In this document: positions 12,745 through 50,874 of the stretch, one piece after another
How positions within the stretch are numbered: position 1 is the first letter of the stretch
How the letters are laid out: the number at the start of each line of letters is the position of its first letter
Assembly (NCBI GenBank): GCA_039720395.1
Contig: JBBPBK010000144.1
Coordinates: 62,001 to 126,000, forward strand
Reading direction: 5' to 3'
Origin: Liquidambar formosana
Lineage: Eukaryota > Streptophyta > Magnoliopsida > Saxifragales > Altingiaceae
Length of the DNA stretch: 64,000 nt
Position numbers and translations under genes: made by a program
Notes under the pieces: model-generated
What the model was told of the DNA's origin: nothing
What the model saw: the letters and a program-made list of their open reading frames with translations, nothing else
Database searches by the model: none

Positions 12745-12762
12745 TGGCGACTCCGCTGGGGA
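12745..12762 (+). other. Primer binding site of element C
   Basis: TGGCGACTCCGCTGGGGA directly after the LTR end. From memory this class of site is that of Tat/Ogre elements primed by tRNA-Arg. The same 18 bases occur at 47556-47573 (minus) in A and at 23744-23761 in the second C copy. Confidence 0.85.
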
Positions 12763-29784: not shown

Positions 29785-32700
29785 TGTGAACCCCAAAAAT
29801 TGTTAAGGCCCACAGGAGGGTTTAAAAGTCGCCAATCTGTGGACCCAGGAAAAGAGGGCCCACGAATGGGTTTGGAAAAAGAAAGGAGTCGCCACCTTAT
29901 TTTTTAAAGGAAACAAGGAAAACCCTAAAAACAGTTTTGTTTTAGGAAAACAAAAGATTGACTCCATATTTAAAAATGGAAAGGCAAATGATCTTTTGGA
30001 AACCAGAGAATTCGGGGATTCGGAGGCTAAGTTACGATATGGGAAGGTTCTAGGCAAAGCCTATAGGCACCCATATCGCCCTAAACGGTCTCTTAATTTA
30101 ATTGGGCTAAATCAAAGTCTTAATCACACATAAATCTACAGTTATCATCACAAGACAGCATGCATATCATTCATTCATTCATCCATATAATCATGTAAAT
30201 CAAAGAAAAAAAAACAGAAAAAAGAAGGAGGGGGAGAAAACCTAGGATACTTAGTATCCTAGGGCGGACTTGAACATCACGAAGAGCGCCTACGTACCAT
30301 GTATGGAAATACATGGATCAAAGTCCACGTAGTTCGAAAGGGAATAGGGTTATAACCTAATCAAGGCCTATGGTAAACCCTAAGTTTCCTTTCAAGTAAA
30401 ACATGGTAAGCTTCCAAAAATGAATGATTCTCAAAAGGTTTTTAGTAAAATATGGAATTTTGATAAAAGATGGAAACTTTGATTTAAAAGGTATTTTTTT
30501 ATTGAAAGGAAACTATAGAATCTACCATACCCCTCTATTAGGAAACAACCCTAGGGGGGGAAGAAAGGGAAAGTTTCAAAGGAAGGAAAGAAGGGTGAAT
30601 TGGGGCACCCTCACACCCTACTTACCTTAAGCGAAAGCAACCTGTCAAAGTAACCACCCTATTGCATAGGGTAATTACCTTATTTGCAATAGCCAAAATA
30701 ACCACCCCACATTGGTGGGGTAGTTGCACCTGTTGTACCTGTCAAAGCGCCTGCAATTTCCATGCAAAACATACCAAAAATACCAACCAAACAAGCTAGA
30801 TTCCAAATCAAGCCATTATCATGCCCAAACATGGGCTAACACATGCTCAAAATATCATATCAAGGACAAATAACAGATCTGGACAGAATTGAAATAAGGC
30901 TTAAAATCAACCACAAGTCATGCAACAACATGAATCATAAGCTAACTGAAACCCTAATTCAACCCTACATGCAATGACATGCAAAAAACCCTAAAATCAC
31001 CTATATGAATGCTAGAAATATCATAGTTATCAAATATGCAGCACATATATATCAACTATGAAGAAAACACAAAGAAAAACCCTAAGCTATCATGCTATAT
31101 GCAGCTAAACTCACACAAGGATGATAAAAACCCTAGAATCACAATTGTGCTAAAAAACACATTGAATAACTTTAAATCATGCAAAGCCCATCATAGACAT
31201 CATGCTAATCATGCATATTAATCAATAGAAGCATCCACACATGAGAAAAATACAAGCTTGCACATGAAATATAGCTATTCTAAACATAAACTCCATTTCA
31301 GCACTAAGGAAACCCTAGAATCCCAAACATGCAGCAAATCACATGGAACATCATCCTAGCATACTAAACAGCCCATAAATATTATCCTAATCATGCATAC
31401 ATTCCAATGGAAGCAACAAAACACAATAAAAACATAAGCTCTAATATGCCAAAGAGTTATTTCATGCAGAAAACCATTTTAAGCACCTAAGAAACCCTAA
31501 AGTCCCAAACATGCAGTAAATCACATGGAATAACATCCTAGCATACTAAACAGCCCATGAATATTACCCTAATCATGCATACTAACTAATAGAAGTAGCA
31601 AAACACAATAAACACAAGCTTCAATATGCAAAAGTGTTATTTCATGTACAAAACCAATTTCAGCACTAAGGGAACCCTAGAATCCCAAACATTCAGTAAA
31701 TCACATGGAATAACATCCTAGCATACTAAACAGCCCATGAATATGATCCTAAACATGCACACTAACTAATAGAAGTAGCAAAACACAATAAAAACACAAG
31801 CTTGAACATGGAATAATGCTATCTTATGCAAAAACCCTAGTTTGAATGAAAGAGAGAAAGGGGAAGAGGCTTACCTATGGTGGCTGCTGTAGAGAGTCCT
31901 CCTCCTCTTATGTGCTGCTGGAAACAACCTCCTTCAAGCCTTCAAGCAATGCTCCAGCCCTCCTTCAAGCCTTCTCTCACACTCTCTCACTCAAAGTTTA
32001 AGTTAAACTACCCTAAGGATGGCTGCCATAGCCTCCAAGTCTCACTCACACTTCAGAAATTGCCTCCAAAAAGTCCCCTATTGCTGAAGTATAAGGGGGT
32101 ATTTTTAAGGGTAATGGGGGGAAACCCTCAATGGTTGGGATTAAAACCCTAGGGATTGATCCAAGGGCTCTTAGAGGTTACCTTGGGGCTCAAGTAGGTC
32201 AAAAAGGGCTGAAATTAGGGTTAAATGGCGGCCAAAGGCGAGCAAATCCGAGAAAATAGGGTGGGAGCCGCGTCAAGGCTCAAAAAAGGAAAGTGGCTCG
32301 GGTGACCACCTGGGGCTGGGCGGCTAGCAGCCTGGGCCCAGGCGGCTAGCCGCCCAGGCCTGGGTGGTCACCCGAGGCCATGTCAGCTTCAGCCCATTTT
32401 TGACCCTTTCAGCTTCCAAATGTGTTTCAGGGCTCAAATGAACTCCGATTTTGACGAAACGAAAGCCAAAACGACCGTGTTTCGAAGGGGAATGTAATTT
32501 GAGTCACTTGAGGGCAAGAAACCCTAGCCATGGCTGCATGGTTGAGTCCTACAAAGGTGGTTAACCGCTATGCCTCACCATCGCTTAGCTTAGGTATGCA
32601 CATAGGGTCGCACCGAATGCTTTCCAATTCGAAATTCAACCTCCCTAAACACATTTGGGGATGAAATCAAGACCAATCAAGGTCAAATGAGTAGTCATAG

Positions 32701-33083
32701 AGTGAAAATCATGAGCCAATTCGAGCTAACCCGAAGTAGGTCTTTTAGCCAACCTGAGCCTTAATGAGCCATTCTAATCCCGAACCTTCAATTCATCGAA
32801 TTGAACCCACAAATACCTCAAATACAACCATATGAACTCCAATTGGCAACTTGGAGATCATTTCAAGGTCAAATGGAAAGTTTGTGATCAAAAAGACAAT
32901 TATGCCCCTCAAGTCACAAAAGTTCTAATTAACCCTCGAGATCAACTCCAAATCGAACCAAAATTCATACACACCATCCTTAGGACCCTAGAAACTCAAT
33001 GCAAAAGACTAGACTCAAAAAGGAAACAAAAAGACACATGCAATGACAAACCCTAGCTAAGGTGGCAAAAATGGGGTGTGACA
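29785..33083 (-). repeat. 3' LTR of element A
   Basis: 3,299 bp, minus sense TGTCACACCCC to GGGTTCACA. Palindrome at 32297-32376, U5 stem-loop at 30035-30078. Where the 5' LTR has a TATA box (49891-49903), this copy reads GGTATTTTTAAGGG (32099-32112), so the TATA box is lost. Confidence 0.93.
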
Positions 33084-33240
33084 GAAGCCCCTCATTGGTG
33101 AGCAAGTTTCACTTGCAAGCCAATGACCAAAAGAACAACCCATTTTTGCCCGGGGAATTGATTTAATCAAGAACCACTGGGGAAAAGAGGGTGAACATAT
33201 CATTGAATTCTTCGAATTCATCATACACAAGCACAAAGGT
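33084..33240 (-). other. Polypurine-tract region of element A
   Basis: Next to the 3' LTR the minus strand reads CCAATGAGGGGCTTC then TGTCACAC, the same as in C and B, so this is the likely plus-strand primer site. The remaining bases show no gene. Confidence 0.6.
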
Positions 33241-34380
33241 ACTCTTCATAAGTTCTACAGAACTCCTCTCATGCTGTATACCAGTTTCACTGGGGAACAA
33301 GATGAGGTATCCACAGGTTACATCGAACTTCGTTCGATGAAAGGTCTTCCAATTCTATGCCAGTGACAACTGGCGAATGGTATGAGGTAACATTATGCCA
33401 TCAAGGCCATCCCAAAATATGAGAAAGATACATCCTTCTCACATTCAAACCGTCAAGGTTATTACTCAATTATCAAGGTAATCACATCCCATACTGCACC
33501 AGTGACAACTGATGAACAATACGGGGTAACACTATAGCTTACATCGAACTTCGTTCGATGAAAGGTCTTCCCATACTATGCCAGTGACAACTGGCGAATA
33601 GTACGAGGTATCCATAACTTATATCGAACTTCGTTCGATGAAAGGTCTTCCCATACTGTACCAGTGACAACTGGTGAATAGTACAAGGTATCCATAGCTT
33701 ACATCGAACTTCGTTCGATGAAAGGTCTTCCCATACTGTACCAGTGACAACTGGTGAATAGTACAAGGTATCCATAGCTTACACCGAACTTCGTTCGATG
33801 AAAGGTCTTCCCATACTTTGCCAGTGACAACTGGCGAATAGTACGAGGTAACACCATGCCATCAAGGCTATCTCAAAATATGAGAAAGATACATCCTTCT
33901 CATATTCAAACCATCAAGGTTATCATTGAAATATAACACGAGAAAGATCACATCCTTCTCTTGCTCAAATCAATCAAGGTAAACACATACCACAGGAAGC
34001 CATCAAGGCTATCTCAAAACATGAGAAAGATACATCCTTCTCATATTCAAACCATCAAGGTTATCATTCAATTGTTAAGGTAGTCACATAGTACGAGGAA
34101 GGTCACAACCTTCAATCAGGGTAAACACATACCATTGGGAAAGATCGCATCTTTCAAGTCATCAAGGTAAGCATGTAATCATGAGAAAGATTGCATCCTT
34201 CTCATATCAAACTCTCAAGGTGAACACATAGCATGAGAAAGATCGCGTCCTTCTCATAATCAAACCATCAAGGTCAACATAAATCATGGGAAAGATTGCA
34301 TCTTTCAAGTCATCAAGGTAAGCATGTAATCATGAGAAAGATTTCATCTTTCTCTCACTAAGTCATCAAGACAAAGGTAA
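33240..34380. repeat. Tandem and dispersed hairpin repeats in the A 3' region
   Basis: About five units of 78-83 bp carry ATCGAAC-TTC-GTTCGAT (33322, 33542, 33621, 33702, 33782) and GCCAGT-GACA-ACTGGC or ACCAGT-GACA-ACTGGT. From 33390 to 34380 come shorter repeats with GCC-ATCAA-GGC / AACC-ATCAA-GGTT and GAGAAAGAT / ATCCTTCTC. The units are homologous to the C array in the same position of the element. Confidence 0.88.
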
Positions 34381-34784
34381 GCTTCTACTCACCAACCAAG
34401 TCATCTCACATGGAGGCTATTCATGCCTCAACTCAAACACCAACTCATATAGGAGACACAATTATCTCATGAAAGCAATCACTCACATGCAAATAGGGAA
34501 GGTATCTTTATCCCAAATGACAACAAATCATAGTGACATAGGAGGGAATTCATCCCTAATGATCAAAAATCATATGCATAGAGAGGGTTGTTCAACCCTA
34601 CTAGCATGCCATGCCCACACAAGGGCCACCAATGCAATCTCTTTCAAATCATTTCATGTCAAACAATGTCAAGATATTCATTCATTTTTCAACTCAAAAC
34701 ATGCTTGAGATTTCATCTCAAAGAAGGTTCAAAAGCGCGAATAGGCGAGCAAAGGCCAAACGAGCGCAACGGAGCGAGCAAGGG
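34381..34784. other. A 3' region between the hairpin array and the first antisense promoter
   Basis: About 400 bp without a supported gene; CAA/CAT-rich in plus sense, and short frames here have no family resemblance. Confidence 0.4.
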
Positions 34785-34862
34785 GGGGTGACCACCTGGC
34801 TGCTGGTGGCTTGCCGCCCAAGCCCAGGCGGCTTGCCGCCCCATGCTGGGCGGTTACCCGAG
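34785..34862 (+). promoter_or_regulatory. GC-rich palindrome upstream of the first antisense gene
   Basis: Begins GGGTGACCACC and ends GGCGGTTACCCGAG with GGCGGCTTGCCGCC inside. It lies about 300 bp before the proposed ATG at 35160. No convincing TATA box follows; the closest word is GTTTTTAAAC at 34886-34895. Confidence 0.55.
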
Positions 34863-35159
34863 GCTGGTGCTGCCCAGTTTGAGGGTTTTTAAACCCTTGA
34901 CTCCCCATTTGTGCATTCAAGCCTCCAAGCTCGAAAATAGAGAGCTTCTCTCTCTAGAACTCACTCCATCCTTCTCCAAATTCTCACATACATATTCTCA
35001 TTCAAAGTTTCACTTTCAATTCAAGTTATGTGCATGAAATAGCATCAAGAACAAGTCATTCAACAACAAAAACAAGCATCAATCATCAAGTTGCAAGATC
35101 AAATTCATCATCTTTCTTATCAAACCCATTTTTCTCACATACAAGCTCAACCACCAACA

Positions 35160-37827
35160 ATGGCTTCTAGCAATGATTCCAACATCAAGTATCCATATTA
35201 TGTGATCAAGAATACATACAAGGCACCAATCTATGATGCATCCCAAGACAAGGTGTTGCTTGAACCTAAGAAGCATCTCTCCTACCTCCATTCCCAACAT
35301 GAGGTTAGTTCTTCCCAACTTAACATGTTTATCATGAAATTTTGATTTCTATTGGATAAAATGCATTCCCATGATCTTCTTTTGATTGTTTCTATCATTG
35401 TTAAGCCAAGTTCATTGATTTGGCAAGGATTGAATGTGCAAAAAGCTTGTTTCCCAATGCTTGAGAAAAGATGCCCACCAAGTGTTTGATAAAATGCCAA
35501 AGAGACAAAAACATGTTCAATTCTTGAAAAATCAATTGGTTTGCATTGTAGAACCAAGTCATATGGTCTTGGCAAGGATTTGATATACAAAAATCTTTCA
35601 TTTCAATGCTTGAAAACAAGTTACACACCAAGTGTTCGATAAAATGCCCGAAAGGCAAAACCATGTTCAATCCTTACAAAATCAATGAATTTGAATACAC
35701 AAAGTCATGGGCATTCATTTCTAATTCATTTCATGAATCAAAACCCATATTTTAAAACTTTTGGAAAACCATTTGAAATCAATTACCAATGCATGCCCAA
35801 TATCTCTATGTTTTCAATGCTAATTCAATGCACAATCTTTTGACATAGCCCGACTTCCAAAGTCTCCGTACAAGGACATCAATAAAGGGGCTCATCTCAT
35901 GGTGGAGATATATGGAACATGCCCAACCACGTGCTCGCAAGATAGTAAAGAAGGCGGGTTTTGGGCCCTTCCTAGATGCTCTATGGAACGAGCAATGGGA
36001 TAGGCAAGCATTATTTGCCTTGACAGAGCTATGGTGGGACACCACCAACACTTTCCATTTTAGCTTCGGGGAGATGACCATGACCCCTAAGGATTTCACC
36101 ATGATAACTGGGTTGAGCTTGAAAGGCAAGCGCTTGGACTACTATGAACATGCCAACATGGATCAAAACTACATAGTAGCTCTACTTGGGGTTGAAGCGG
36201 AATTAAGCCCAAAAGGTGTGCGCCGTACTTGGCTCTACAACACCTTTGCCACTGAAGAAGAGAGTGAGGGGACGGATCCCCAATACATTGTGAGAGCTTT
36301 CTTGCTCTACATGATTTCATGCACCTTCTTTGCGGGCACCAATGACATGGCTCGACTTGAGTTGCTAGCTAGCATGGAAGATGTGAACAAAATTGGGAGA
36401 TACAATTGGGGTGGAGCTGCTTTCGCAAACATGTATCGCTCCATGACTGACATGTCCCGAGGAGTTGCAAAGAACTTTGGGGGACTTCCTTTCGTTTGGG
36501 AGGTAACAAAGAACATTCAATTCTCTATTATTTCCCGAAACTTAACACACACATGATTTCATCTATTTTTTCTTTTGATTTTCCACAGATATGGTACTAC
36601 GAGTACCTGAACATGTGTCGCCCAACTCTTGCTAGTGATGCCATGTCATGGCCCATCCTTCAGAATTACGCTCCATCTTGCCTGGCTACAAGAGCCTCCA
36701 ATCGACACGATTATGCCCATGCAAGGGCATATCTTGCTAGCTTGACTGTTGATATGGTAGAATCTTTTTTTTTTCTCCTTATCTTTTTATCTTTCTCTTT
36801 TCATTTCTCATTTCAAACTCAACAGGTGGAATGGGATCCATGGAGGTTGTGGGAGCATAGGCTACCTGAGAAGTACTCCTCTTGTTTGGAGTTGACAAGC
36901 AAAAGGGTCCTTTTTGAAGGCCCCACAGGTAGAAGCTGGTATCTTGGGGAACGAGTCCTGAGACAAGTCCATGGAAACATGAATGCAGCTGTGACACCTT
37001 CCATGCCACCAAAGGACATGAGGCATACTAGCCACCTAGTAGGGGATGAACTAGAAGAGGCTCTGAGGGGTTGGGATGCTGAGGGATTCACCTCCCCTCG
37101 CATAGAATACACTGCCTTTTGTCGACAATATCTGATGAATCCTAGGGTCACTGGTCTCCCACCTCAAGGGGTGAGCTCCCCCATACTCTTAAACTCTTTT
37201 TTAAGATTACATGAAAGACTCCATTTGACAAATATTTGAATTTCAGGGCCGACGGGCAAGGGGACACAGCTCCACAGTTGGATCTGCCACTGGGATGACT
37301 TACAATGACGAGGATGAGGACCTTGAAGGAAATCAACCTCCACCCCTCCCACAACTAAATTGGTATGTGAACTTGTGCAGTGGGACAAAATTTGTGAAGA
37401 CTGACATTACCCATCCACCATTCGATGAATATCCCAAGATCGATCCATATTATGAGAATGTGAGTTCTAAACTCTTACCTTCTTGAAATTGGATTCTTTC
37501 ATTATTGTTAACCATGTTTATACTTTCCTAGGTTCCACGGGAGTATGCCCAGGAATGCATTGAACTCAATGAAGGGTTGAGGAGGGATCTTGTGCGAATG
37601 ATTTTAGAGAACTCAGTTCTGGAAGCACGCTTAAATCCCCAAGTAAGTGATCATCTTATTAACTTTCAACTAGGATTGGCACCATTACCCTCCTAACTCA
37701 TTATCTTTGTTTGCAACAGGCATCATCATCTAATCCACCACAGGATATGCCCCCTCCTAGAGCGCCTCGTGCAGGGCATGATGGAGCGGGGCCAAGTCGA
37801 AAGAGAAGGCCCACGGGAAATCATTGA
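35160..37827 (+). CDS. Seven-exon plant-mobile-domain gene carried antisense in element A
   Basis: Proposed exons: 35160-35303, 35849-36502, 36589-36756, 36826-37170, 37247-37459, 37532-37642, 37720-37827. All introns have GT-AG ends and phase 0, and joined they give 580 codons ending TGA. The start AACAATGGC is a good plant context. The protein has an aminotransferase-like plant mobile domain (PMD) in exons 2-4: KKAGFGPFLDALW, then TFHFSFGEMTMTPKDF, ITGLSL, and WYYEYLNMCRP. It ends in an acidic/proline part and a basic tail GPSRKRRP, a possible nuclear signal. Known PMD proteins (MAIN, MAIL1) act in the nucleus; PMD genes are also found in transposons. Exon 1 and intron 1 (545 bp) are the least certain. 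B has no counterpart. Confidence 0.78.
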
Positions 37828-38080
37828 GTTTCACTCACCTCTTGTTAGGAATGTTGGAATCTTTCTATCTATCTTGTCATGTACTAATTAGGAACTTCAA
37901 TTCCCAACCTTGAACCTTTATTATGGATACTTGATGAATCTATGTTCGAACTTTATTGCAATGATATGATCTTGTATTGAGTGAAAAATGGGCTTAAATC
38001 AAGCACAAAAAAGTCAAAACATCACAAAAGGGCCAAACGAAGGCATAACAAGGCAAAAATGGGCGAAACAAGACGGCGGT
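37828..38080 (+). other. Spacer between the two antisense genes of A
   Basis: About 250 bp without an open frame; probably the 3' untranslated end of the first gene (AT-rich, up to about 37985) and the upstream region of the second. Confidence 0.45.
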
Positions 38081-38160
38081 CTCGGGTGACCACCTGGGGC
38101 TGGGCGGCTAGCCGCCTGGGCCCAGGCGGCTAGCCGCCCAGGCCTGGGTGGTCACCCGAG
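38081..38160 (+). promoter_or_regulatory. 80-bp near-perfect GC-rich palindrome
   Basis: Two 40-bp arms meet at GGGCCC. They differ only near TGGGGC versus the complement of GGCCTG. Outer ends are CTCGGGTGACCACC and GGTGGTCACCCGAG; each arm holds the perfect palindrome GGCGGCTAGCCGCC. The centre CTGGGCCCAG contains the TGGGCC word bound by TCP factors in plants. It stands 88 bp before the TATA box at 38248. Confidence 0.8.
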
Positions 38161-38247
38161 CCCGAAGCGGTGTTTCGCCTGATTTTAGGAAACTTCCTAT
38201 TTTGACGGGATTCCACCTTCCAAAACACGGATTTCCGAATTTTTTCC

Positions 38248-38256
38248 TATAAAAGC
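38248..38256 (+). promoter_or_regulatory. TATA box of the second antisense gene of A
   Basis: CTATAAAAG, 48 bp before the ATG at 38304. B has CTATAAAAA at 55204-55212 at the same spacing, so the promoter is conserved between families. Confidence 0.72.
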
Positions 38257-38303
38257 ACATCCAAGGGGTCTCAAACCCTACTAACATTCATTGAGAGCAA
38301 ATT

Positions 38304-39590
38304 ATGGAAGCCCTAGACAAACTCTTGAGTGATTTTCTGAAGGTTATGAGTGCGGAGGCAAGGAAGGAGTTCAAGCGCTACTGCCTGGATCCGTTGTTTT
38401 CTTTGATGCATGTGAAGCTTGAAACCACTCTTCTTACTGCTGCTACATATTTTTGGGATCCCCAACTTCATGTATTCCGTTTCAACTATGAAGAGCTATG
38501 CCCAACAATGGAAGAGTTCTACGCTCTGTATGGAGTTTCACCTGTAGGACCTTTCATCCTCCCTACTCCTCGCTCAAGTTACCTGATTTCCTTCTCCAAC
38601 TTCCTTGGGATTTCTCAACAAGAGGCCTCCATATTTGTGAAGGATCATAAGGTGAATCTCATGGAAATAGCAACTTCCTTCTTGGCTCATGATAGCAAAG
38701 GTACCTTGGATTTCAACCTTCCTACTCAACATGCTCTTGCTTTCTGCTTGGTTGGTCGCTTCCTTATCTCCACGGGGACTCTCTATGTCCCTATTCAAAT
38801 TTGTGAACTGATCCCTTTTCTTCTTGAACATAACAACCTGATTCCCATGGTGCTAGCTGAAACCCTCAATTGTTTAGACAAAGTTCATGATAACCCACAA
38901 GCCCCATTAGGAGGGAGCCCCATTCTACTGCAGATGTGGCTTCTTGAAAGGCTTAATTTCTTATCTCCTACCACCATTAATCCATACAAACCCCAACATT
39001 ATTGTTGCCGTCGAGTTGAACTTCCTGGTCAGTTTTCTTTGAGGGAATGGTTGGGCTACTTCCAAACTCTCTCATGGCGAAACATCAGGTGGTTTGTCTC
39101 CACATGGGGATGCAAGGAACAAATTCTTCTTCGAACTTCTGGGTGTGCTATGGTCAAGCTCATAGGGTTGAGATCAACTTCATTCTATTGGACTTCAAGA
39201 ATCCTTCGTCAAATGGGTGCCATGCAAACCATACCTACTTCTGTGGTATTTGATTATTCTGTTGAACCTGTGGGCCCCACAATAGTTAAGTGGGCCAAGA
39301 CTAGATGGACTGACCAACTGAAACTGACTCGAGTTGAGAACACTGATGGGCCTTATGTCATGAGCCCTGAATACAAGACATGGTTGAAGAATAGCTTAGG
39401 TGAAAGAGAAACCATACGCAGGGAAAGGATTTATGACCTTATCAAGGACACAAGACTTGGGTTTTGCAGGGAAGACATTCTGGAAGCAGTGGAAGCAACA
39501 CATGCTCATGACTTACGAAAGAAGCGAAGACTTGAAAGAAAGGAGCAGAAAGCAAACCAAGAGACTCTGAAGAAAAACAAAAAGACTTGA
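38304..39590 (+). CDS. Antisense DUF7745-like / PMD-related protein of element A
   Basis: Intact 428-residue single-exon frame on the strand opposite to pol. Recognisable parts: TYFWDPQLHVFRFNYEELCP followed by TMEEFYALYGV near residues 45-80, a hydrophobic centre, GGSPILLQMWLLERL near 205-220, LREWLGYFQTLSW, and a long basic, probably coiled C-terminus (RKKRRLERKEQK). The FWD...F...ELCPTxEEF plus GGSPxLLQxWLLE pattern is that of plant DUF7745 proteins, which resemble the plant mobile domain; function unknown. B has a homolog at the same place. It has its own TATA box, and AATAAA-like words lie at 39640-39690 after the stop. Its 3' end converges with pol. Confidence 0.75.
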   Translation: MEALDKLLSDFLKVMSAEARKEFKRYCLDPLFSLMHVKLETTLLTAATYFWDPQLHVFRFNYEELCPTMEEFYALYGVSPVGPFILPTPRSSYLISFSNFLGISQQEASIFVKDHKVNLMEIATSFLAHDSKGTLDFNLPTQHALAFCLVGRFLISTGTLYVPIQICELIPFLLEHNNLIPMVLAETLNCLDKVHDNPQAPLGGSPILLQMWLLERLNFLSPTTINPYKPQHYCCRRVELPGQFSLREWLGYFQTLSWRNIRWFVSTWGCKEQILLRTSGCAMVKLIGLRSTSFYWTSRILRQMGAMQTIPTSVVFDYSVEPVGPTIVKWAKTRWTDQLKLTRVENTDGPYVMSPEYKTWLKNSLGERETIRRERIYDLIKDTRLGFCREDILEAVEATHAHDLRKKRRLERKEQKANQETLKKNKKT

Positions 39591-39780
39591 AGACTTTTAG
39601 AAATAGGTTATCTATGGCATGTCAATAGTTCTTTATCTAACATCAATAAATTGCTATGTCAATCAATTAGTTCTAAATGAATTGCCAATAATAATTCAAT
39701 TTTGAGATTTGTTGTTGTGGTGTTGTTTGGACCGCACCCAAGGTAACTTTATGGGCTGCCTACGTATCCCCATCCTTTTT

Positions 39781-39811
<31 letters not shown>

Positions 39812-39938
39812 CATTTTTTTTTCTTCATTTTTCTCTTTTTTTCATTTTTTTTTTTAGGAATGGGGAATCAGGCCCTCGTAGTTCAAATGCCTTAACTTTT
39901 GCCTAGGCCGCCCTTATGGGTTTTCAACCTAGCAGGCC
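39591..39938 (-). other. Region between the antisense gene and pol of A
   Basis: Includes a long T-run (A-run in sense) at 39781-39855, the word GGGTGCGGTCC (sense) near 39730, TACGTAGGC near 39760, and the sense stem-loop GAAAACCC-ATAA-GGG between CTAGG and CCTAG at 39902-39935. All are shared with B and C. Confidence 0.6.
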
Positions 39939-42900
39939 TTACACATAATACTTCTTTAATTGATCCAAATTGGTAGGGCGAGCGAACTCAATTCCATCCA
40001 AATCCATGAGGCGAACAGCCCCTGCTGGTAATATCTCCCTGATAACATACGGGCCACCCCAACTTGGCTTGAACTTCCCTCGTGGATCAAAAATTGGAGC
40101 TCTGATTTCTTTCAACACCAAATCCCCTGTCTTCAAACCTCGGTCTTTGACATGCTTGTTGAATGCTCTTGCAACCCTTCGCTGATATCCCTGCACATGA
40201 TACAAGGCCCTCAATCGCCTTTCATCGAGCAATGCCAGCTCATCATAACGGTTCTTAACCCAATCTGCTTCTGCTATCTGACTCTCCATAGCAACCCGTA
40301 ATGACGGTACCTCCAACTCAATAGGCAAAACAGCCTCCATCCCATACACCAAGGAATAAGGGGTAGCCCCTGTTGACGATCTCACAGATGTTCTATAGCC
40401 CCACAAGGCTAATGGCAACTTCTCATGCCAATCAGTGTAGGTGTCAGCTGTTTTCTGTAGTATCTTCTTAACATTCTTGTTGGCGGCCTCCACTGCTCCA
40501 TTAGTCTACGGGCGATAAGGGGAGGATAGATGGTGCACTATATTGTATTTCCGCAAGAGCTCCTTGGTTTCTTTCTGAAAGTGCTGACCATTGTCTGAAA
40601 TGATCTCATGGGGTACCCCATACCTGTAGATGATGTTGAGCTGTATGAACTGTGCTACCTTCTTGGCGTTCAGGGTCTTGAAAGATGCTGCCTCTATCCA
40701 CTTAGTGAAGTAATCGATAGCTACCAAGATGTACTCATGCCCATTGGAGGCTTTCGGCTTAATCTGCCCAATTATATCTATTCCCCACACTGCAAACGGC
40801 CAAGGTGACGACATACTTGTCAAAGGCATGGAAGGTAAGTGTTGTCCATTAGCAAAGACCTGACATTTGTGACACTTCTTAACATGTGCATGGCAATCTC
40901 TCTCCATTGTAGACCAATAGTAACCCAACCTCATGATCTTCTTAGCTAGCATATAACCATTCATGTGCGGTGCTCCAACTCCTTCATGGATTTCACTAAC
41001 AAGACGCTCGGCTTCTTCCTCAGTGACACACAACAGATGGACCCCATCGTATGACCTTCGGTATAGCTTTCCTCCACACAAAACATAGTGACTTGCTAGT
41101 CTCCTCAGTGTTCTCCTATCAACGCGGGTTGCTCCTTCAGGATACTCCTTTTCCTCAATGAATTTCATGATGTCATAGTACCAAGGATGGCCATCTTTCA
41201 ACTCTCCTTCTCGAATAGAACAGCAATACACAGGTTTTTCTCTACATTCTATCACCAATGGTTTTACATTCCCACCATCCGGGATTTCCACCATAGAAGC
41301 TAGAGTTGCCAAAGCATCAGCGAACTGATTCTTATTTCTTGACAAATAGTTGAACTCTATTTCCACAAATTCCTTAGTCAAGGCTTCTAAGTAAGCATGA
41401 TACGGCAACAGCTTCTCATCACGAGTCTTCCACTCTCCCTTTATCTGGCAGATAATCAGTGCTGAATCTCCGAAAACTTCTAACTCTTTGATCCCCAGTT
41501 CTAGTGCAGCTTCCAATGCAAGGATGCAGGCTTCATACTCGGCAATGTTGTTGGTGGCTTCAAACCCTAACTTAACCGCCAATGGTGTGAATGCTTCTTC
41601 AGGTGAGACTAGTAGAACTCCTATCCCATACCCTCTCTTATTTGCAGCTCCATCAAAGTATACTTTCCAACTCTTCTTTCCAATCTCCAGGACATCCTCA
41701 TCGGGGAATTGATCATTAAATTGTTCTGATGACGCCACAGGGCAGCTAGCCAAGTAATCTGCAATGACACTTCCTTTTACTGACTTCTGTGTTACATACT
41801 TTATGTCGAATTCATTGAGAAGAATTGACCATCGGGCAGTTCTGTAGGACAAGACCGGCCTTTCTATCAGGTACTTCAGTGGGTCCATTCGGCTTATCAA
41901 GAAAACCTCATACGACATCATGTAGTGACGGAGTTTCTGAGTTGCCCATACCAAAGCCACACAAGCCTTCTCTATGGCATTGTACTTCACCTCATAGTCT
42001 GTCATCTTCTTGCTTAGATAGTAAATGGCATTCTCCTTTTTCGACCCCTCAAGGTACTGAGCTAGCATAGCTCCCGTCGCGGTTTCAGTGACCGTCAAGT
42101 ATAACAATAACGGCTCACCTTGTCGCGGAGGAACTAGAATTGGTGGATTACTCAAATACCTTTTGATGATCTCAAAAGCTTCTTGACATTCTTCGTTCCA
42201 TACCTTCGGCACCCCCTTCTTAAGTAACTTGAAAATCGGCTCGCATACCATAGTCAAATTAGCAATGAACCTGCTTATGTACTGAATTCTCCCCAAGAAC
42301 CCTCGAATCTGCTTCTCTGTGCTAGGCGGCTCCATCTCTACAATGGCCTTGATTTTTCCCGGATCGACCTCAATTCCTCTCTGAGTAATCATGAATCCTA
42401 ATAGCTTGCCCGCAGTGACACCAAAGGCGCATTTCTGTGGATTCAAACGCAAGTTGTACTTCTTTGCTCGCTCCAGGAACCTTTCCAGTGCCATGAAGTG
42501 TCCTTCTCGATCCACGGACTTCACGATCATGTCGTCCACATATACTTCCACCTCCTTGTGGATCATATCATGCAGCAATGTTGTAGCAGCTCTTTGATAG
42601 GTAGCCCCAGCATTTCTCAAACCGAATGGCATCACTTTATAGCAATACGTTCCCCACTGTGTGATGAAGGCCGTTTTCTCCATATCTTGCGGCGCCATCT
42701 TTATCTGATTGTATCCGGAAAACCCATCCATGAAAGAGAGGAGCGCATGTCCTACAGTACTATCTACCAATACATCAATGTGGGGCAAAGGGAAATCATC
42801 CTTAGGGCTTGCTGCATTAAGATCTCGAAAATCCACACACATCCTCACTTTTCCATCCTTTTTAGGCACGGGAACTATATTAGATAACCACTTGGGATAC

Positions 42901-43298
42901 TCTACAACCTGTAGGAACCCCGCATCGAGTTGTTTGGTTACTTCCTCCTTTACTTTCAATGCCCACTCGGGTTTCAATCTTCTCAATTTTTGCTTTACCG
43001 GCTTTTTAAGGGGATCGGTGGGGATGAAGTGCTGCACAATGTCTGGATCTATGCCGGGCATGTCTTCATAAGACCATGCAAAGGCCGTTATGTTGGCCTT
43101 TAAGAGGGCTATCAGCTTTTCTTTTTCAAGTGGTGAAAGGGTTATCCCAATTTTAATTATCTTTGGCAATTCATTTGTCCCTAAATTGATTGATTCCAAT
43201 TCATCCATGTTAGGTTCGGTGACACCCCTTTTCCTTCGCTCGGCGAGCTCCGGGGGGACGTCATTCCTAGGATCTATATCCATGCCATAAATATCCAT
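39939..43298 (-). pseudogene. pol of element A: RT, RNase H, archaeal RNase H, integrase
   Basis: From ATG 43298 (MDIYGMDID) the frame would give 1,119 residues, the same as B, but CAG has become TAG at 40506-40508. RT carries CVDFRDLN, FMDGFSGYNQI, MPFGLRNAGATYQR and YVDDMIV. The usual gypsy RNase H follows, then a second, archaeal-type one with YFDGAANKRGYGIG, NNIAEYEA, FGDSAL and NQFADALATLA. Integrase has an HHCC finger (ending CHKCQVF), Asp in WGIDIIG and Asp in SDNGQHF. The nonsense codon falls in YRP-stop-TNGAVEAANKN, removing the third catalytic residue (Glu) unless read through. The end lacks a chromodomain. Confidence 0.93.
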
Positions 43299-43317
43299 AG
43301 AAGAGAGAAAGGAAACA

Positions 43318-43497
43318 CTGCAAGCAAACAATGTATAAAAGAAACACACTTCATTAAAGGAACAAACAAAAAGACACAAACTTGAAAAGGAAACCAAAAT
43401 TTGGTGCCACAACTATGAAACGACTCCTAACTCCACAAAGTGGGATAGGCGGACAAACTTTATTGAAAGCAGGAAAGACTCTAACTAAGGAACCTAC
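43318..43497 (-). other. Predicted protease-RT intron of element A (180 nt)
   Basis: In minus sense the donor reads TT|GTAGGT and the acceptor TTGCTTGCAG|T. The gag-pro stop codon TAG (43494-43496) lies inside the donor, so splicing removes it and reads AGC-TTT-GTT-TCC into pol. B has the same arrangement. Ogre elements are known for an intron in this position. Confidence 0.68.
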
Positions 43498-46400
43498 AAG
43501 CTACTATCAGGCAGGTCATGATCTTCTTCTTCAAGGATCTCTGCAATGGCTCCATCTTCTAGGTACCAATTGTGAAGTGGCATGGTTGCATGGTGAATTG
43601 ACGAATCTTGGCAATCTTCTGTTGCTGACTCCCCCAAAGTAAGAACCATATCTTGGAACATGGTAACCATGGTTTCAGAATCCATGTGCTCCACCCAGTC
43701 TTCTTCTTTCTTCTCCCAATAACTGTCATTGATGGCTTCATCATCCACGATTTCGGCGGTGATTGGATACCACTTGGTGAAGAAAATCTCAAATCCTGGG
43801 ATTCTGATCTTGGTTGTTGGATTGAACATAGGCTCTGGGAACCCACAGTACAGGAAGTCATCCCCCTCCTTGATGAAATAGCCATTCAGAGTCGGCCTGT
43901 ATGGTGGAATCTTAAAGTCTGGCACCCTTCCTTCTGCTCTAGCTTTTCCCTTCTCCTTATTCCTCCTTGTCATTTCTGCATAGTCATTCTTAGTGGGCTC
44001 ATATCCTAACCCAAAAGTATAGGAAACAACCCGACTTTGAACAGAGTGGGGAATTCCTTGTTGGCGACGCCCTAGGCCCATACCCGGGAAGAAATTCATT
44101 TTCCGCATTATCTCACCAACATGTAAATTACCATGAGGACAATAGTCAAGGGGTATCAATTCTTCCTTTTCCAACTCCTTTTCTATACACTGCACATACT
44201 CAAACCCAGACAAGGGTATCTCAACTGATTCCGGTTTTATTTCACATATGGGTATACCCGCCATTTTCAAATCATAGTCCCCTTGAAGCGTGACAATGGC
44301 TCCCTCATGTGGGAACTTCACCTTTTGATGCAATGATGATGGTACAGCCCCAGCAGGATGAATCCAAGGCCTTCCCAATAACAGATTGAAACATGACGGC
44401 ACATCCAGGACTTGAAATTCTACTCTGAACTCTGTGGGTCCCATGATTAAAGGTAAAGTGATCATCCCAATTACTTCTCTACGGGTATTATCATACGCCC
44501 TCACTGTCTGCCCAGATGGAGTGAAATCAGTGGGCCCCAAGCCCAAAACAGTTGCAGTTCTTAAAGGACATACATTTAGTGCGGAACCATTATCAATCAA
44601 GACCGTAGGAACTCTCTTCCCCATGGTATCAACAGTTATATGCAAAGCTTGGGAGTGGCTTGGCCCACTCTTAGGTAAGTCAGCCTCTGTGAACACTATA
44701 GTGGAATTCTTCGGAGTAGGGTTTACTAGATTCACCAATCCCTCAGGGGACAAATCAACCGGAACCTGTACCTGGTTTAACAACTTCAGCACTGTCTGTC
44801 TGTGTTTGTGGGAGGCCATAAGCAAGCCCCATATGGTGATATTGGCATTGGTCTTCTTCAATTGTCGGAGTACTTCGTCCTCTTCTTCTTGCACATCAAG
44901 GCGCTTATCTAACTCACCCAGTGGATTATCAGATTCCAAGTGCGGAGGCTTGAAATGGCGGCCCCCTCTTGTCATGTGGTCTACTTCTTCATCACTAGCC
45001 CATATGTCATCAATTTCATTTGTGTCACCCATCAGGTCATCCCATTCAATCATGTCAATGTCCTCCATCTGCACCTCTTCGGGTATATCATCCCAGCCCG
45101 TAGGAATTATGGGCTCACTTGGCAATGGATCAGGATAAAGCACATAGTAATCAAACTTCCCCGAAGGTTCTCCCAATAACCCCACTTGAGGGTCTCCTGC
45201 TTCATACCTTTCTTTCAACTGCTGTTGGATGGACTTCTTTGGCAATTGTAGGGTCTTTTGATCAATGAGGTCTTGAACGACCTTTCTCAACATAGCACAG
45301 TCATCAGTGTCATGGCCGGGTATACCATGGTATTGGCAATATTGATGGGGTGTTTGGGGTCTTGGCTTTGGAGGGTGAGGTATGATAAGGCCTTGGTCGC
45401 AGCATTGGTGAAAGGCTTGGGTCAAGGACATGGGTAATGGAGTGTATTGTCTTATGGGTAGGCAAGGTCGAGATGGGTCGGCTTCAATGGCATTTATGGA
45501 GTTGGATGAATTATGAGAGGGAAGTGGATTTTGGGTGACATTTGGGCGATTTGGTGGAGTTGGTGGTGAGATGATTTGCTTGTCAAGTAAGTCTTGGATC
45601 TCATGCCTAAGGCGATAGCAACGGTTGGTTGAGTGGCCTTTGGCTTGGTGGAATTTGCAGTATTCATTCTCATTGTAGCTCTTGGGCAATGGATTTGGTG
45701 GTGGTCTTGGGTCGAGAGGTTTCAACAGGCCTCGGCTTTTTAGCTTTTCAAGTACTTTCTCAAGTGGCATATGCAGCTCGGTGAATTGGCGAGGTGGGTT
45801 GGTGTCATTTAGGGAGATAGGTTGAATGGGTTGGGCTATGGCATTGACCTCGGCATTGTTTTTCCCAGCAAAGTTCGGCCTGCGGTTCTTTTGGACTTCT
45901 TCTGTCTTGATTGACCCATCGGCAATGGCATCCTCAACTTGTGTACCTGCTCCGATAAGAGCCTTGAAATTAGGGAAGTAGTGAGCAAAGAGGTGCTTGT
46001 GATACACCGGCAATAGGTTCTTAACCACCAATTGAATCTGATCTTCCTCATTCGGTCTATCCGCCATTTTCGAGGCCTTTTGCCTCCACCTTGTAATGAA
46101 AGCGGAAAAGGTCTCATTAGCCCCTTGTTTTGTGGTCTCTAGGTCCCTTCTTGTGACATCCACCTCAGTGTTGTACTTGTAGTGCTCTGAAAACTCATTA
46201 CATATGTCTTCCCAAGTTCGGGTTCTATTCTCATCCAAGGCTAGGAACCACTTTAAAGCAGAAGTGGCTAGGGTTTCATGGAACATTTGGGCCAAGAGTT
46301 CATCTGTCGCTCCTCGAGGGTGCATAGCTCGTACATACATCTTCAAATGGGTCTTGGGGCAACCCGTTCCATCAAACTTTTCTAATTCAGGCATCTTGAA

Positions 46401-46859
46401 TTGTAGTGGAATACGAGCTTGAGGAAACAAAGATAGGGTACGTACATCCACCATGTCATCTGTCCTACGGATTCCCTTTATAGTTCTCTCCAAGGCTTCC
46501 ACCTTGCTAGCCAACACAGAGTCTGTATCAGAGGTCTTCCCCTTACTTCCCCCTTCCAGGTTAAAAACTTCAGGTGATTCATTCCCTTTGGGCTGAGTAC
46601 TTCCCCCATCATTGGTCTTAGTGCCCTCTCCAGACTGGGTCCCATTTTCGGTGTTATCCCCCGGGGTACGGCCATTATTCTGTTCGGGTTCGGACATCTT
46701 ATGTTGGATATCTTGGGCCATTTTCAATGCTCTCTCGGATACATCAGTGGTGTAATCAAGCTTGGTCATGATAGCCTTCAAACAAGTCTCAACATCAAAA
46801 CCCCCTTCACTAGTTGCTTCTTCGGCCATGTCTGACTGGTTGGTAGAATCAATCTTCAC
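43494..46859 (-). CDS. gag-protease polyprotein of element A
   Basis: An open frame of 1,121 codons. No ATG is at the 5' end: the frame begins in LAWIRDQQGRLV after a TGA near 46890 and the first in-frame Met is in SDMAEE, so the start is uncertain. Order: N-terminal acidic part with ALKMAQ; capsid-type retrotransposon gag domain near residues 165-300 (KWFLALDENRTRTWEDI, ETFSAFITRWRQKA); two knuckles of C-x2-H-x4-H-x4-C form (CKFHQAKGHSTNRC, CQYHGIPGHDTDDC); aspartic protease with LIDNGSALNVCP and LLGRPWIH; a G-patch-like stretch FFPGMGLGRRQQGI; and a C-terminal linker. Makes particle proteins and the processing enzyme. Unspliced RNA would stop here; spliced RNA would continue to pol. Confidence 0.92.
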   Translation of the reverse strand: MKIDSTNQSDMAEEATSEGGFDVETCLKAIMTKLDYTTDVSERALKMAQDIQHKMSEPEQNNGRTPGDNTENGTQSGEGTKTNDGGSTQPKGNESPEVFNLEGGSKGKTSDTDSVLASKVEALERTIKGIRRTDDMVDVRTLSLFPQARIPLQFKMPELEKFDGTGCPKTHLKMYVRAMHPRGATDELLAQMFHETLATSALKWFLALDENRTRTWEDICNEFSEHYKYNTEVDVTRRDLETTKQGANETFSAFITRWRQKASKMADRPNEEDQIQLVVKNLLPVYHKHLFAHYFPNFKALIGAGTQVEDAIADGSIKTEEVQKNRRPNFAGKNNAEVNAIAQPIQPISLNDTNPPRQFTELHMPLEKVLEKLKSRGLLKPLDPRPPPNPLPKSYNENEYCKFHQAKGHSTNRCYRLRHEIQDLLDKQIISPPTPPNRPNVTQNPLPSHNSSNSINAIEADPSRPCLPIRQYTPLPMSLTQAFHQCCDQGLIIPHPPKPRPQTPHQYCQYHGIPGHDTDDCAMLRKVVQDLIDQKTLQLPKKSIQQQLKERYEAGDPQVGLLGEPSGKFDYYVLYPDPLPSEPIIPTGWDDIPEEVQMEDIDMIEWDDLMGDTNEIDDIWASDEEVDHMTRGGRHFKPPHLESDNPLGELDKRLDVQEEEDEVLRQLKKTNANITIWGLLMASHKHRQTVLKLLNQVQVPVDLSPEGLVNLVNPTPKNSTIVFTEADLPKSGPSHSQALHITVDTMGKRVPTVLIDNGSALNVCPLRTATVLGLGPTDFTPSGQTVRAYDNTRREVIGMITLPLIMGPTEFRVEFQVLDVPSCFNLLLGRPWIHPAGAVPSSLHQKVKFPHEGAIVTLQGDYDLKMAGIPICEIKPESVEIPLSGFEYVQCIEKELEKEELIPLDYCPHGNLHVGEIMRKMNFFPGMGLGRRQQGIPHSVQSRVVSYTFGLGYEPTKNDYAEMTRRNKEKGKARAEGRVPDFKIPPYRPTLNGYFIKEGDDFLYCGFPEPMFNPTTKIRIPGFEIFFTKWYPITAEIVDDEAINDSYWEKKEEDWVEHMDSETMVTMFQDMVLTLGESATEDCQDSSIHHATMPLHNWYLEDGAIAEILEEEDHDLPDSSL

Positions 46860-46899
46860 TAAGCGCCCTTGCTGGTCGCGGATCCAAGCCAGTACGTCC

Positions 46900-47555
46900 T
46901 CTCACTCCTCTACGAAAGGGAACAATCAGTCTCTCATCCTAAGGGTATGTCCTAGGCTTCCATATTTGTCTCAATGACTTCACATCATATATACTCAATT
47001 AGTCCCTTTTAATCCAATCACCTTTACAAGGGTCATGGGCGAAAGGTACGTATTAAGGATATAGGGTGCAAAGGTCCTCTATTAATTTTTCCATTAAGCA
47101 CATCACAAACACGGTCATGATATCATTACAAACAATGTGGGTGCATAAGGGTGAAACCATAGTGTCCTGCAAGTCTGTCTATATGGACTAATGATAAGGG
47201 TAGGCTGGGGTCCTTCACTTGCTTGAGCAATCTTTATACCTAACCACATGTGGCATCAGGAACGCCGCGTGGGTCCAGCAGTACGTGATTAACTCATTTA
47301 ATATACCCAAGGGCAAGCCCAAGGGTACTTGGCAAGAGAGGTTGAGAGCTTTCGCCCCAACTCATGGAATCAGGAAAACCAAGGTTGAGGCTAGGCCCGT
47401 CAGTGGCAAGGGACATCGATCCTAACATGCAAGAGTTTGCGCACACAATGCAATAAATGAAAGCACACAATCAAGCGAATGCAATGTGATTGATTTTAAT
47501 TAAACAAAAGAAATTAACTTAGCCCAATCAAATTGTATAGAGTCTAGCCCACAAA
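46900..47555 (-). other. Leader of element A between primer site and gag
   Basis: About 650 bp, no long frame. It contains the family-wide block with CCCAAGGGTACTTGGC and CAGTACGTG (about 47275-47335), also in C and D, and resembles the B leader at 63830-64000. Such leaders hold packaging signals, but nothing here proves it. Confidence 0.6.
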
Positions 47556-47573
47556 TCCCCAGCGGAGTCGCCA
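47556..47573 (-). other. Primer binding site of element A
   Basis: Minus strand TGGCGACTCCGCTGGGGA, four bases after the LTR end; identical to the site in element C. Confidence 0.85.
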
Positions 47574-47577
47574 AGTC

Positions 47578-50500
47578 TGTGAACCCCAGAAATTGTTAAG
47601 GCCCACAGGAGGGTTTAAAAGTCGCCAATCTGTGGACCCAGGAAAAGAGGGCCCACGAATGGGTTTGGAAAAAGAAAGGAGTCGCCACCTTATTTTTTAA
47701 AGGAAACAAGGAAAACCCTAAAAACAGTTTTGTTTTAGGAAAACAAAAGATTGACTCCATATTTAAAAATGGAAAGGCAAATGATCTTTTGGAAACCAGA
47801 GAATTCGGGGATTCGGAGGCTAAGTTACGATATGGGAAGGTTCTAGGCAAAGCCTATAGGCACCCATATCGCCCTAAACGGTCTCTTAATTTAATTGGGC
47901 TAAATCAAAGTCTTAATCACACATAAATCTACAGTTATCATCACAAGACAGCATGCATATCATTCATTCATTCATCCATATAATCATGTAAATCAAAGAA
48001 AAAAAAACAGAAAAAAGAAGGAGGGGGAGAAAACCTAGGATACTTAGTATCCTAGGGCGGACTTGAACATCACGAAGAGCGCCTACGTACCATGTATGGA
48101 AATACATGGATCAAAGTCCACGTAGTTCGAAAGGGAATAGGGTTATAACCTAATCAAGGCCTATGGTAAACCCTAAGTTTCCTTTCAAGTAAAACATGGT
48201 AAGCTTCCAAAAATGAATGATTCTCAAAAGGTTTTTAGTAAAATATGGAATTTTGATAAAAGATGGAAACTTTGATTTAAAAGGTATTTTTTTATTGAAA
48301 GGAAACTATAGAATCTACCATACCCCTCTATTAGGAAACAACCCTAGGGGGGGAAGAAAGGGAAAGTTTCAAAGGAAGGAAAGAAGGGTGAATTGGGGCA
48401 CCCTCACACCCTACTTACCTTAAGCGAAAGCAACCTGTCAAAGTAACCACCCTATTGCATAGGGTAATTACCTTATTTGCAATAGCCAAAATAACCACCC
48501 CACATTGGTGGGGTAGTTGCACCTGTTGTACCTGTCAAAGCGCCTGCAATTTCCATGCAAAACATACCAAAAATACCAACCAAACAAGCTAGATTCCAAA
48601 TCAAGCCATTATCATGCCCAAACATGGGCTAACACATGCTCAAAATATCATATCAAGGACAAATAACAGATCTGGACAGAATTGAAATAAGGCTTAAAAT
48701 CAACCACAAGTCATGCAACAACATGAATCATAAGCTAACTGAAACCCTAATTCAACCCTACATGCAATGACATGCAAAAAACCCTAAAATCACCTATATG
48801 AATGCTAGAAATATCATAGTTATCAAATATGCAGCACATATATATCAACTATGAAGAAAACACAAAGAAAAACCCTAAGCTATCATGCTATATGCAGCTA
48901 AACTCACACAAGGATGATAAAAACCCTAGAATCACAATTGTGCTAAAAAACACATTGAATAACTTTAAATCATGCAAAGCCCATCATAGACATCATGCTA
49001 ATCATGCATATTAATCAATAGAAGCATCCACACATGAGAAAAATACAAGCTTGCACATGAAATATAGCTATTCTAAACATAAACTCCATTTCAGCACTAA
49101 GGAAACCCTAGAATCCCAAACATGCAGCAAATCACATGGAACATCATCCTAGCATACTAAACAGCCCATAAATATTATCCTAATCATGCATACATTCCAA
49201 TGGAAGCAACAAAACACAATAAAAACATAAGCTCTAATATGCCAAAGAGTTATTTCATGCAGAAAACCATTTTAAGCACCTAAGAAACCCTAAAGTCCCA
49301 AACATGCAGTAAATCACATGGAATAACATCCTAGCATACTAAACAGCCCATGAATATTACCCTAATCATGCATACTAACTAATAGAAGTAGCAAAACACA
49401 ATAAACACAAGCTTCAATATGCAAAAGTGTTATTTCATGTAGAAAACCAATTTCAGCACTAAGGGAACCCTAGAATCCCAAACATTCAGTAAATCACATG
49501 GAATAACATCCTAGCATACTAAACAGCCCATGAATATGATCCTAAACATGCACACTAACTAATAGAAGTAGCAAAACACAATAAAAACACAAGCTTGAAC
49601 ATGGAATAATGCTATCTTATGCAAAAACCCTAGTTTGAATGAAAGAGAGAAAGGGGAAGAGGCTTACCTATGGTGGCTGCTGTAGAGAGTCCTCCTCCTC
49701 TTATGTGCTGCTGGAAACAACCTCCTTCAAGCCTTCAAGCAATGCTCCAGCCCTCCTTCAAGCCTTCTCTCACACTCTCTCACTCAAAGTTTAAGTTAAA
49801 CTACCCTAAGGATGGCTGCCATAGCCTCCAAGTCTCACTCACACTTCAGAAATTGCCTCCAAAAAGTCCCCTATTGCTGAAGTATAAGGGGGTATTTATA
49901 GGGATTGAGGGGAAACCCTCAATGGTTGGGATTAAAACCCTAGGGATTGATCCAAGGGCTCTTAGAGGTTACCTTGGGGCTCAAGTAGGTCAAAAAGGGC
50001 TGAAATTAGGGTTAAATGGCGGCCAAAGGCGAGCAAATCCGAGAAAATAGGGTGGGAGCCGCGTCAAGGCTCAAAAAAGGAAAGTGGCTCGGGTGACCAC
50101 CTGGGGCTGGGCGGCTAGCAGCCTGGGCCCAGGCGGCTAGCCGCCCAGGCCTGGGTGGTCACCCGAGGCCATGTCAGCTTCAGCCCATTTTTGACCCTTT
50201 CAGCTTCCAAATGTGTTTCAGGGCTCAAATGAACTCCGATTTTGACGAAACGAAAGCCAAAACGACCGTGTTTCGAAGGGGAATGTAATTTGAGTCACTT
50301 GAGGGCAAGAAACCCTAGCCATGGCTGCATGGTTGAGTCCTACAAAGGTGGTTAACCGCTATGCCTCACCATCGCTTAGCTTAGGTATGCACATAGGGTC
50401 GCACCGAATGCTTTCCAATTCGAAATTCAACCTCCCTAAACACATTTGGGGATGAAATCAAGACCAATCAAGGTCAAATGAGTAGTCATAGAGTGAAAAT

Positions 50501-50874
50501 CATGAGCCAATTCGAGCCAACCCGAAGTAGGTCTTTTAGCCAACCTGAGCCTTAATGAGCCATTCTAATCCCGAACCTTCAATTCATCGAATTGAACCCA
50601 CAAATACCTCAAATACAACCATATGAACTCCAATTGGCAACTTGGAGATCATTTCAAGGTCAAATGGAAAGTTTGTGATCAAAAAGACAATTATGCCCCT
50701 CAAGTCACAAAAGTTCTAATTAACCCTCGAGATCAACTCCAAATCGAACCAAAATTCATACACACCATCCTTAGGACCCTAGAAACTCAATGCAAAAGAC
50801 TAGACTCAAAAAGGAAACAAAAAGACACATGCAATGACAAACCCTAGCTAAGGTGGCAAAAATGGGGTGTGACA
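47578..50874 (-). repeat. 5' LTR of element A
   Basis: 3,297 bp. In sense order: palindrome 50088-50167, TATA box CCTATAAATACC (49891-49902), a splice-donor word CATAG|GTAAGCC near 49668, a possible 75-nt intron 48344-48418, the TACGTAGGCGC block near 48077-48125, and the U5 stem-loop 47828-47871. Differs from the 3' LTR at only a handful of sites by eye, chiefly a cluster at the TATA box. Confidence 0.94.
49891..49903 (-). promoter_or_regulatory. TATA box of the A 5' LTR
   Basis: Minus sense CCCTATAAATACC, about 185 bp downstream of the palindrome. This is the LTR that would drive the genomic RNA. Confidence 0.75.

Follow-up and report, generated by a model that had tools for sequence, protein, structure and literature searches.

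How does an LTR retrotransposon, which is copied through RNA, come to hold a gene with six introns, and does such a gene belong to the element or to its host? The question is raised by a 64,000-nucleotide stretch of the Liquidambar formosana genome (the window), in which a gene for a plant mobile domain (PMD) protein lies antisense within an LTR retrotransposon, element A. A first-pass annotation, made from the sequence alone, had described this gene as host-like, divided into seven exons and accompanied by a second antisense gene of related type, and had concluded from the near-identity of the LTRs of a complete element that the gene had moved recently as cargo. PMD proteins are known from both settings. 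Of Ogre elements, 57% encode them in an extra ORF (Neumann 2019, PMC6317226, citing Steinbauerova 2011), and PMD-A1 and PMD-A2, encoded by gypsy elements across angiosperms, are distinguished from host PMD-C (Ikeda 2017, PMC5418596). The host proteins MAIN, MAIL1 and PP7L have roles in silencing and in gene expression (PMC7156037, PMC5418596).

The carrier element

Element A is bounded by LTRs that differ by 7 mismatches and one gap across 3299 positions, is flanked by the target site duplication (TSD) CAAAT at 29780-29784 and 50875-50879, and splits a 2.8-kb LTR, of which an unbroken paralogue lies at 18258-21069 (Table 1). Given this uninterrupted paralogue, element A truly inserted here and is not a mis-assembly; together with the TSD and the near-identical LTRs, it bears out the description of a complete, young element. 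The gag and pol ORFs are 81 bp apart, the mean gag-pro/pol spacer of Ogre elements being 274 bp (PMC6317226), and Pfam detects no protease in gag-pol. In pol, RT_RNaseH_2/RT_RNaseH (405-535) is followed by RVT_3 (586-704) and Integrase_H2C2 (797-852), that is, by an additional RNase H (aRH) between RNase H and integrase, the arrangement of the Ogre/Tat lineage. Since an aRH in this position marks Ogre and Retand (PMC6317226), the predicted domain order puts element A in Ogre/Retand. The size of the element and its LTR length fit Ogre, and its PBS-like sequence may do so; this sequence begins with TGG, its complement ends in CCA, and the Ogre PBS corresponds to tRNA-Arg (PMC9289625).

Elsewhere in the window, an LTR-like pair (10069-13557 and 21069-24556), 99.3% alike and separated by 11 kb in which no ORF is as large as gag or pol, is probably a young non-autonomous element. 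Tandem arrays of ~78-80 bp units at 17053-17785 and 33487-33850 are ~80% alike and lie in opposite orientation.

Table 1. Features of element A, its antisense genes and related sequences in the window
Feature	Position	Strand	Remarks
Element A, Ogre-like Ty3/gypsy LTR retrotransposon, ~21 kb, both LTRs	29785..50874	-	LTR pair, TSD, empty-site paralogue
Element A 3' LTR	29785..33083	-	
Element A 5' LTR	47578..50874	-	PBS-like TGGCGACTCCGCTGGGGA starts 4 nt downstream on the - strand
gag ORF (Retrotrans_gag, G-patch)	43494..46901	-	Pfam
pol ORF (RT, RNase H, RVT_3 second RNase H between RH and INT, integrase)	40506..43412	-	Pfam
Tandem repeats, 80-bp and 53-bp units, PMD gene to 3' LTR	33487..34354		
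Seven-exon antisense PMD gene	35160..37827	+	580 aa; model exact, Pfam match, kept in copies
PMD gene exon 1	35160..35303	+	
PMD gene exon 2, core PMD	35849..36502	+	
PMD gene exon 3, 168 bp	36589..36756	+	Counterpart exon in host MAIN-LIKE 2 likewise 168 bp
PMD gene exon 4	36826..37170	+	
PMD gene exon 5	37247..37459	+	
PMD gene exon 6	37532..37642	+	
PMD gene exon 7	37720..37827	+	C-terminus basic, PSRKRRPTGNH
Second antisense gene, intronless, 428 aa, PMD/DUF7745	38304..39587	+	Pfam
TATA box CTATAAAAG of second antisense gene	38248..38253	+	29/29 aligned rows; in element B at 55205
Palindromic module copy upstream of PMD gene	34786..34864	.	Varies among copies
Palindromic GC-rich hairpin module between both antisense genes	38082..38164	.	
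3'-LTR module copy	32297..32379	.	97.6% to 38082-38164
GCC-type motifs of the 5'-LTR module copy	50110-50145		
Element B DUF7745 gene	55261..56544	+	73% to A; stop at 56032-56034 breaks frame

The seven-exon gene and its protein

The seven-exon model proved exact: every exon length is divisible by 3, all six introns have GT-AG ends and phase 0, and the 1743 nt of coding sequence comprise 580 codons and a stop. Pfam domains on the minus strand place the gene, as proposed, antisense between integrase and the 3' LTR. The spliced protein matches PF10536 (PMD) over residues 99-406 with an E-value of 1.2e-35; at 123.7 bits it exceeds the curated cut-off of 34.9, as does the product of the second antisense gene at 53.2 bits, so that the two genes are indeed of related type. 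Up to an E-value of 10, Pfam yields PMD and a sub-threshold DUF1985 for the first protein and PMD and DUF7745 for the second; Transposase_28, the domain of Retand TRP28, is absent from both. As exons and splice sites are conserved among copies (see below), the gene is predicted to be spliced in the host.

Both PMD proteins end in basic C-termini, which may act as nuclear localization signals. A search upstream of the seven-exon gene revealed no TATA box. Its structure model (P0006) reached a pLDDT of 41.5, too low for use; neither exon 2 nor P0006 has sequence relatives in the PDB at E <= 1, and scans of IMG/VR with both antisense-gene proteins returned no relative. In the public L. formosana annotation, relatives (P0001, P0002) appear as hypothetical or aminotransferase-like plant mobile domain proteins.

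Measured between stops, the longest continuous frames within the gene span 262 and 235 codons; counted from their first ATG they have 228 and 214, and the largest exon has 218 codons. Surveys of extra ORFs require continuous ORFs of 250 codons (PMC6317226) or 600 bp (PMC11963269), and because of these frame lengths they could catch fragments of the gene and not the whole.

Conservation and selection among copies

With up to 3 mismatches allowed, a 28-base pattern spanning the border of exon 2 and intron 2 matched the genome 740 times (377 + 363), and its reversed control gave 0 matches. Exon 2, used as a protein query, gave 4259 candidates, of which the best 150 were scored; these are 98-100% identical and stop-free. 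From such best matches, a choice biased towards young, intact copies, 30 loci were fetched, the window's own copy included. The comparison with other copies covers the antisense genes, with L067 alone among them extending into pol.

The frame is kept in other copies: all seven exons form an intact frame in 26 of the 30 loci (the exceptions being L018, L027, L035 and L037), all twelve splice dinucleotides are intact in 28 (L034 has one altered donor, L037 is rearranged), and both hold in 25. Relative to the window, exons are free of gaps in 27 of the 30 loci, and introns show 6-14 gapped bases in 28. The alignment used for selection analysis has 26 rows, the window and its copies (with L009, L010, L037 and the frame-shifted L027 and L035 outside), and contains 29 gapped columns in introns and 0 in exons. 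Pooled over the whole coding sequence its dN/dS is 0.08, and when the bait, exon 2, is left out it is 0.10; by exon, from 1 to 7, the values are 0.07, 0.05, 0.06, 0.12, 0.04, 0.02 and 0.27. When loci were chosen by the neighbouring gene instead, exons 4-7 gave a dN/dS of 0.11 (29 rows, without L067), with 51 of 87 changes synonymous against 26.2 expected, a count reached in 0/5000 simulations.

The PMD gene is therefore held by purifying selection across copies, and the dN/dS rules out a pseudogene passenger. Introns drift among the genomic copies, but the frame, the splice sites and the lengths of the exons are preserved, so the pattern is more than chance. Intron divergence (0.033) is lower than dS (0.074; 26 rows), a difference that neutrality of the introns by itself does not explain; constraint on the sense strand, or composition, may be the cause. 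Introns and protein have persisted over many cycles of copying, which points to a gene that the element needs.

Age of the gene in the element lineage

A second subfamily was found with P0001 (322 matches exon by exon; best 86 of 7640 candidates scored), and 8 loci were fetched. Six of them have exons 2-7 of exactly 654, 168, 345, 213, 111 and 108 bp, with splice sites in line except for a donor of L070 that the alignment displaces by one base. Loci L069 and L073 are broken, and stops occur in L074 and L075. The dN/dS comparison was made on the 4 of 8 loci without internal stops (L070, L071, L072 and L076), which show dN of 0.23-0.24, saturated dS (> 2), no exon gaps and introns 56-72% alike. 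In L076, the sole subfamily locus for which every frame was translated, the order is unchanged and the second antisense gene comes next.

Since a subfamily saturated in dS has the same exon lengths and introns, the PMD gene is an old part of the element lineage. Both these equal exons and the same neighbour gene in L076 contradict the idea that a newly taken-up host gene moved recently as cargo: the recent event is the insertion of this copy of element A only, and the gene is resident in the family.

The second antisense gene and a losable cassette

The second antisense gene has a dN/dS of 0.12 in bait-selected loci. Among 30 DUF7745 loci taken from 98 listed best matches, 29, the window's own copy included, have the tail of the PMD gene (exons 4-7) just upstream, and introns 4-6 are present in all 29 aligned rows. 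Between the two genes, the 83-bp palindrome at 38082-38164 is identical in 25 of 29 rows: nucleotide diversity (pi) is 0.0033 in this module, 0.0316 before it, 0.0114 between it and the ATG, and 0.0257 in the second gene. As single-stranded DNA, the module folds into a near-perfect hairpin (DNA fold z -12.2). It is ~80% identical to a stretch upstream of the PMD gene, and that copy has a pi of 0.047.

Clusters of AGCCGCC/GGCGGCT lie in module and LTR (32319-32354, 38103-38138 and 50110-50145), and the window contains 14 of these motifs where base composition predicts 2.3. In the module, AGCCGCC may be a GCC-box, an ERF site.

The only exception among the 30 loci, L067 (C2:33498973, minus strand), has the DUF7745 gene and has lost the PMD gene: the upstream module passes directly into the module that precedes DUF7745, and the switch falls inside the module. 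This locus thus lost the PMD gene whole by recombination between two module copies, and because its junction lies inside the module, the PMD gene is a cassette between repeats that can be lost as a unit. Element B, whose presumed 3' LTR is split by element A, has an equal layout without the cassette; no seven-exon PMD gene was found beside its DUF7745 gene. As element B is without the gene and L067 lost it, the gene is not essential to every element.

The structure model of the DUF7745 protein (pLDDT 66) has no match in the PDB at E <= 0.001. One DUF7745 fragment, P0021, is filed under the bacterium Modestobacter lapidis and is probably plant contamination.

Introns in common with a host gene

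For comparison with the host, we used the L. formosana gene L007, whose protein P0026 is itself unnamed and has relatives at 84-86% that carry the name MAIN-LIKE 2; its splice joints are confirmed by the joined peptides, which are present in the public protein. Pairwise alignment with the element protein gives 104 identities among 374 aligned residues (28% in the core), and the score of 218.5 compares with a mean of -84.3 (sd 17.7, maximum -37) in 300 shuffles. Introns 2/3 and 3/4 of the element gene equal those of MAIN-LIKE 2 in column and phase, and the three exons concerned measure 645/168/390 bp in L007 and 654/168/345 bp in the element. A 24-sequence alignment again brings both introns into coincidence with MAIN-LIKE 2 (columns 675 and 761); the outer borders do not coincide (exon 2 start 396 vs 425, exon 4 end 989 vs 945). 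In host PMD genes L001-L004, the domain is matched in one unbroken frame. The host-type PMD genes L001-L005 are clustered (C15:5.575-5.611 Mb) and have long single frames.

In an unrooted tree, the element gene groups with PMD proteins of Ericales and Jatropha, apart from MAIN-LIKE 2, L001-L004, a soybean protein and DUF7745 proteins. The tree represents PMD-C (MAIN/MAIL) by four MAIN-LIKE 2 proteins and by no MAIN, MAIL1 or MAIL3, and the element gene forms a branch separate from these four, by which membership in MAIN-LIKE 2 is ruled out. The description of the gene as host-like thus holds for two intron positions in common with host MAIN-LIKE 2 and fails for its placement in the tree. Because of the shared introns, we infer that the element gene and host MAIN/MAIL genes descend from one spliced gene, and passage between host and element would therefore have gone through DNA, or antisense read-through, and not through mRNA.

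Discussion

In our view the PMD gene probably belongs, as a resident accessory gene, to a high-copy Ogre-like family in L. formosana and is shielded there by its antisense orientation. Host Pol II would transcribe it from the plus strand as a unit of its own, and the transcript would then be spliced. The sense genomic RNA would contain the introns as complement only, so that they would never be removed and would be preserved in reverse transcription. A spliced gene of MAIN/MAIL type would have entered, or left, the element as DNA, for example when read-through occurs in an element that lies opposite a host gene; entry as DNA would explain both introns and orientation.

As to what the proteins do, they may serve the element's own transcription or nuclear entry, much as Grande gene23 or retroviral antisense proteins, which we regard as a real possibility somewhat short of an even chance. 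Their basic C-termini agree with this, and the presence of one palindromic module type in the LTR and before the second gene would permit self-regulation, but those PMD relatives that are known best work in silencing and in gene expression (PMC7156037, PMC5418596). Since MAIN, MAIL1 and PP7L act there, the two basic-tailed proteins could instead be nuclear and work on the MAIN/MAIL1-PP7L module as decoys or substitutes that favour the element, a counter-silencing role that we put forward only tentatively. Equally speculative is the fuller scenario in which the element captured an intron-bearing MAIN/MAIL-type gene in antisense before the subfamilies split and has kept it since, introns included, under strong selection, and in which its pair of PMD proteins mirrors host MAIN/MAIL1 and lets the element escape silencing.

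The direction of transfer could also have been the reverse, the spliced gene having arisen in a gypsy element and MAIN/MAIL having been domesticated with its introns. Shared introns alone give no direction, and Ikeda 2017 (PMC5418596) tends towards domestication; yet several spliceosomal intron gains in a retroelement gene are less simple than the capture of a gene that already had them, and the unrooted tree gives no decision, which leaves transfer from element to host conceivable and, in our judgement, rather unlikely. That the antisense RNA matters rather than the protein, through double-stranded RNA or promoter interference, has been raised for antisense ORFs in a review (PMC7264820) and is in keeping with introns less diverged than synonymous sites, but a dN/dS of 0.08-0.11, the absence of exon gaps in 27 of 30 loci and a frame kept at saturated dS make it improbable. 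Parallel gain or chance as the source of the two common intron positions is more improbable still: exact coincidence is confined to 2 of 4 borders in the multiple alignment, but codon and phase are equal, the intervening exon is 168 bp in both genes, and two exact hits would have a probability of ~1.6e-6 if placement were uniform. PMD proteins do exist as host genes and the seven-exon form resembles one, but a host gene into which LTRs were inserted or mis-assembled, or which is recent cargo, is hardly credible against the TSD and uninterrupted LTR paralogue, the 740 junction matches, the equal neighbour gene in 29 of 30 loci and the old subfamily with equal exons, and mis-assembly or recent host capture is ruled out by junction count, TSD and subfamily.

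The resident antisense PMD gene can be set beside several known systems. Host MAIN-LIKE 2 (P0026) resembles it in the PMD core, two intron positions and the 168-bp exon, and differs as a host gene with 28% core identity on a separate branch. The antisense gene HBZ of HTLV-1 is spliced. It encodes a nuclear protein (PMC11963269) and shares with the PMD gene its antisense place in a retroelement, but the protein is unrelated and the virus is one of animals. Retand TRP28 and Grande gene23 (PMC11963269, PMC7264820) are likewise antisense, between pol and the 3' LTR, near tandem repeats, conserved in most copies and suspected of a nuclear role, whereas their protein family differs from PMD, and the text of PMC11963269 contains neither 'intron' nor 'PMD'. 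The PMD ORFs of Ogre elements (PMC6317226) come with the same RNase H order, a PMD extra ORF, long LTRs and tandem repeats; they were surveyed as continuous ORFs of 250 codons or more, whereas element A has a seven-exon gene and a second PMD gene. The gypsy clades PMD-A1/A2 are possibly the clade of the element A gene.

PMD in Ogre elements, gypsy-only PMD clades and antisense extra ORFs were thus known already. A spliced, selected antisense gene with introns common to MAIN/MAIL may be new: neither a PMD gene that is both spliced and antisense nor any introns in common with MAIN/MAIL came up in the literature searched, which included few subscription journals and is weak evidence on this point.

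Ikeda 2017 (PMC5418596) left the host or gypsy origin of PMD undecided, and its main text does not contain the word 'intron'. Shared introns bear on this ancestry: any plant genome can be scored for them, and as a marker they link gypsy and host PMD to one spliced ancestor, so that the question of origin becomes testable. Retroelements can retain multi-exon genes over long times when these lie antisense, and, if our reading is true, antisense placement would be a general route by which retroelements come to own spliced genes. If the MAIN/MAIL pathway is a target of the PMD proteins, a single gene family would stand on both sides, as silencers of the host and as genes of the element.
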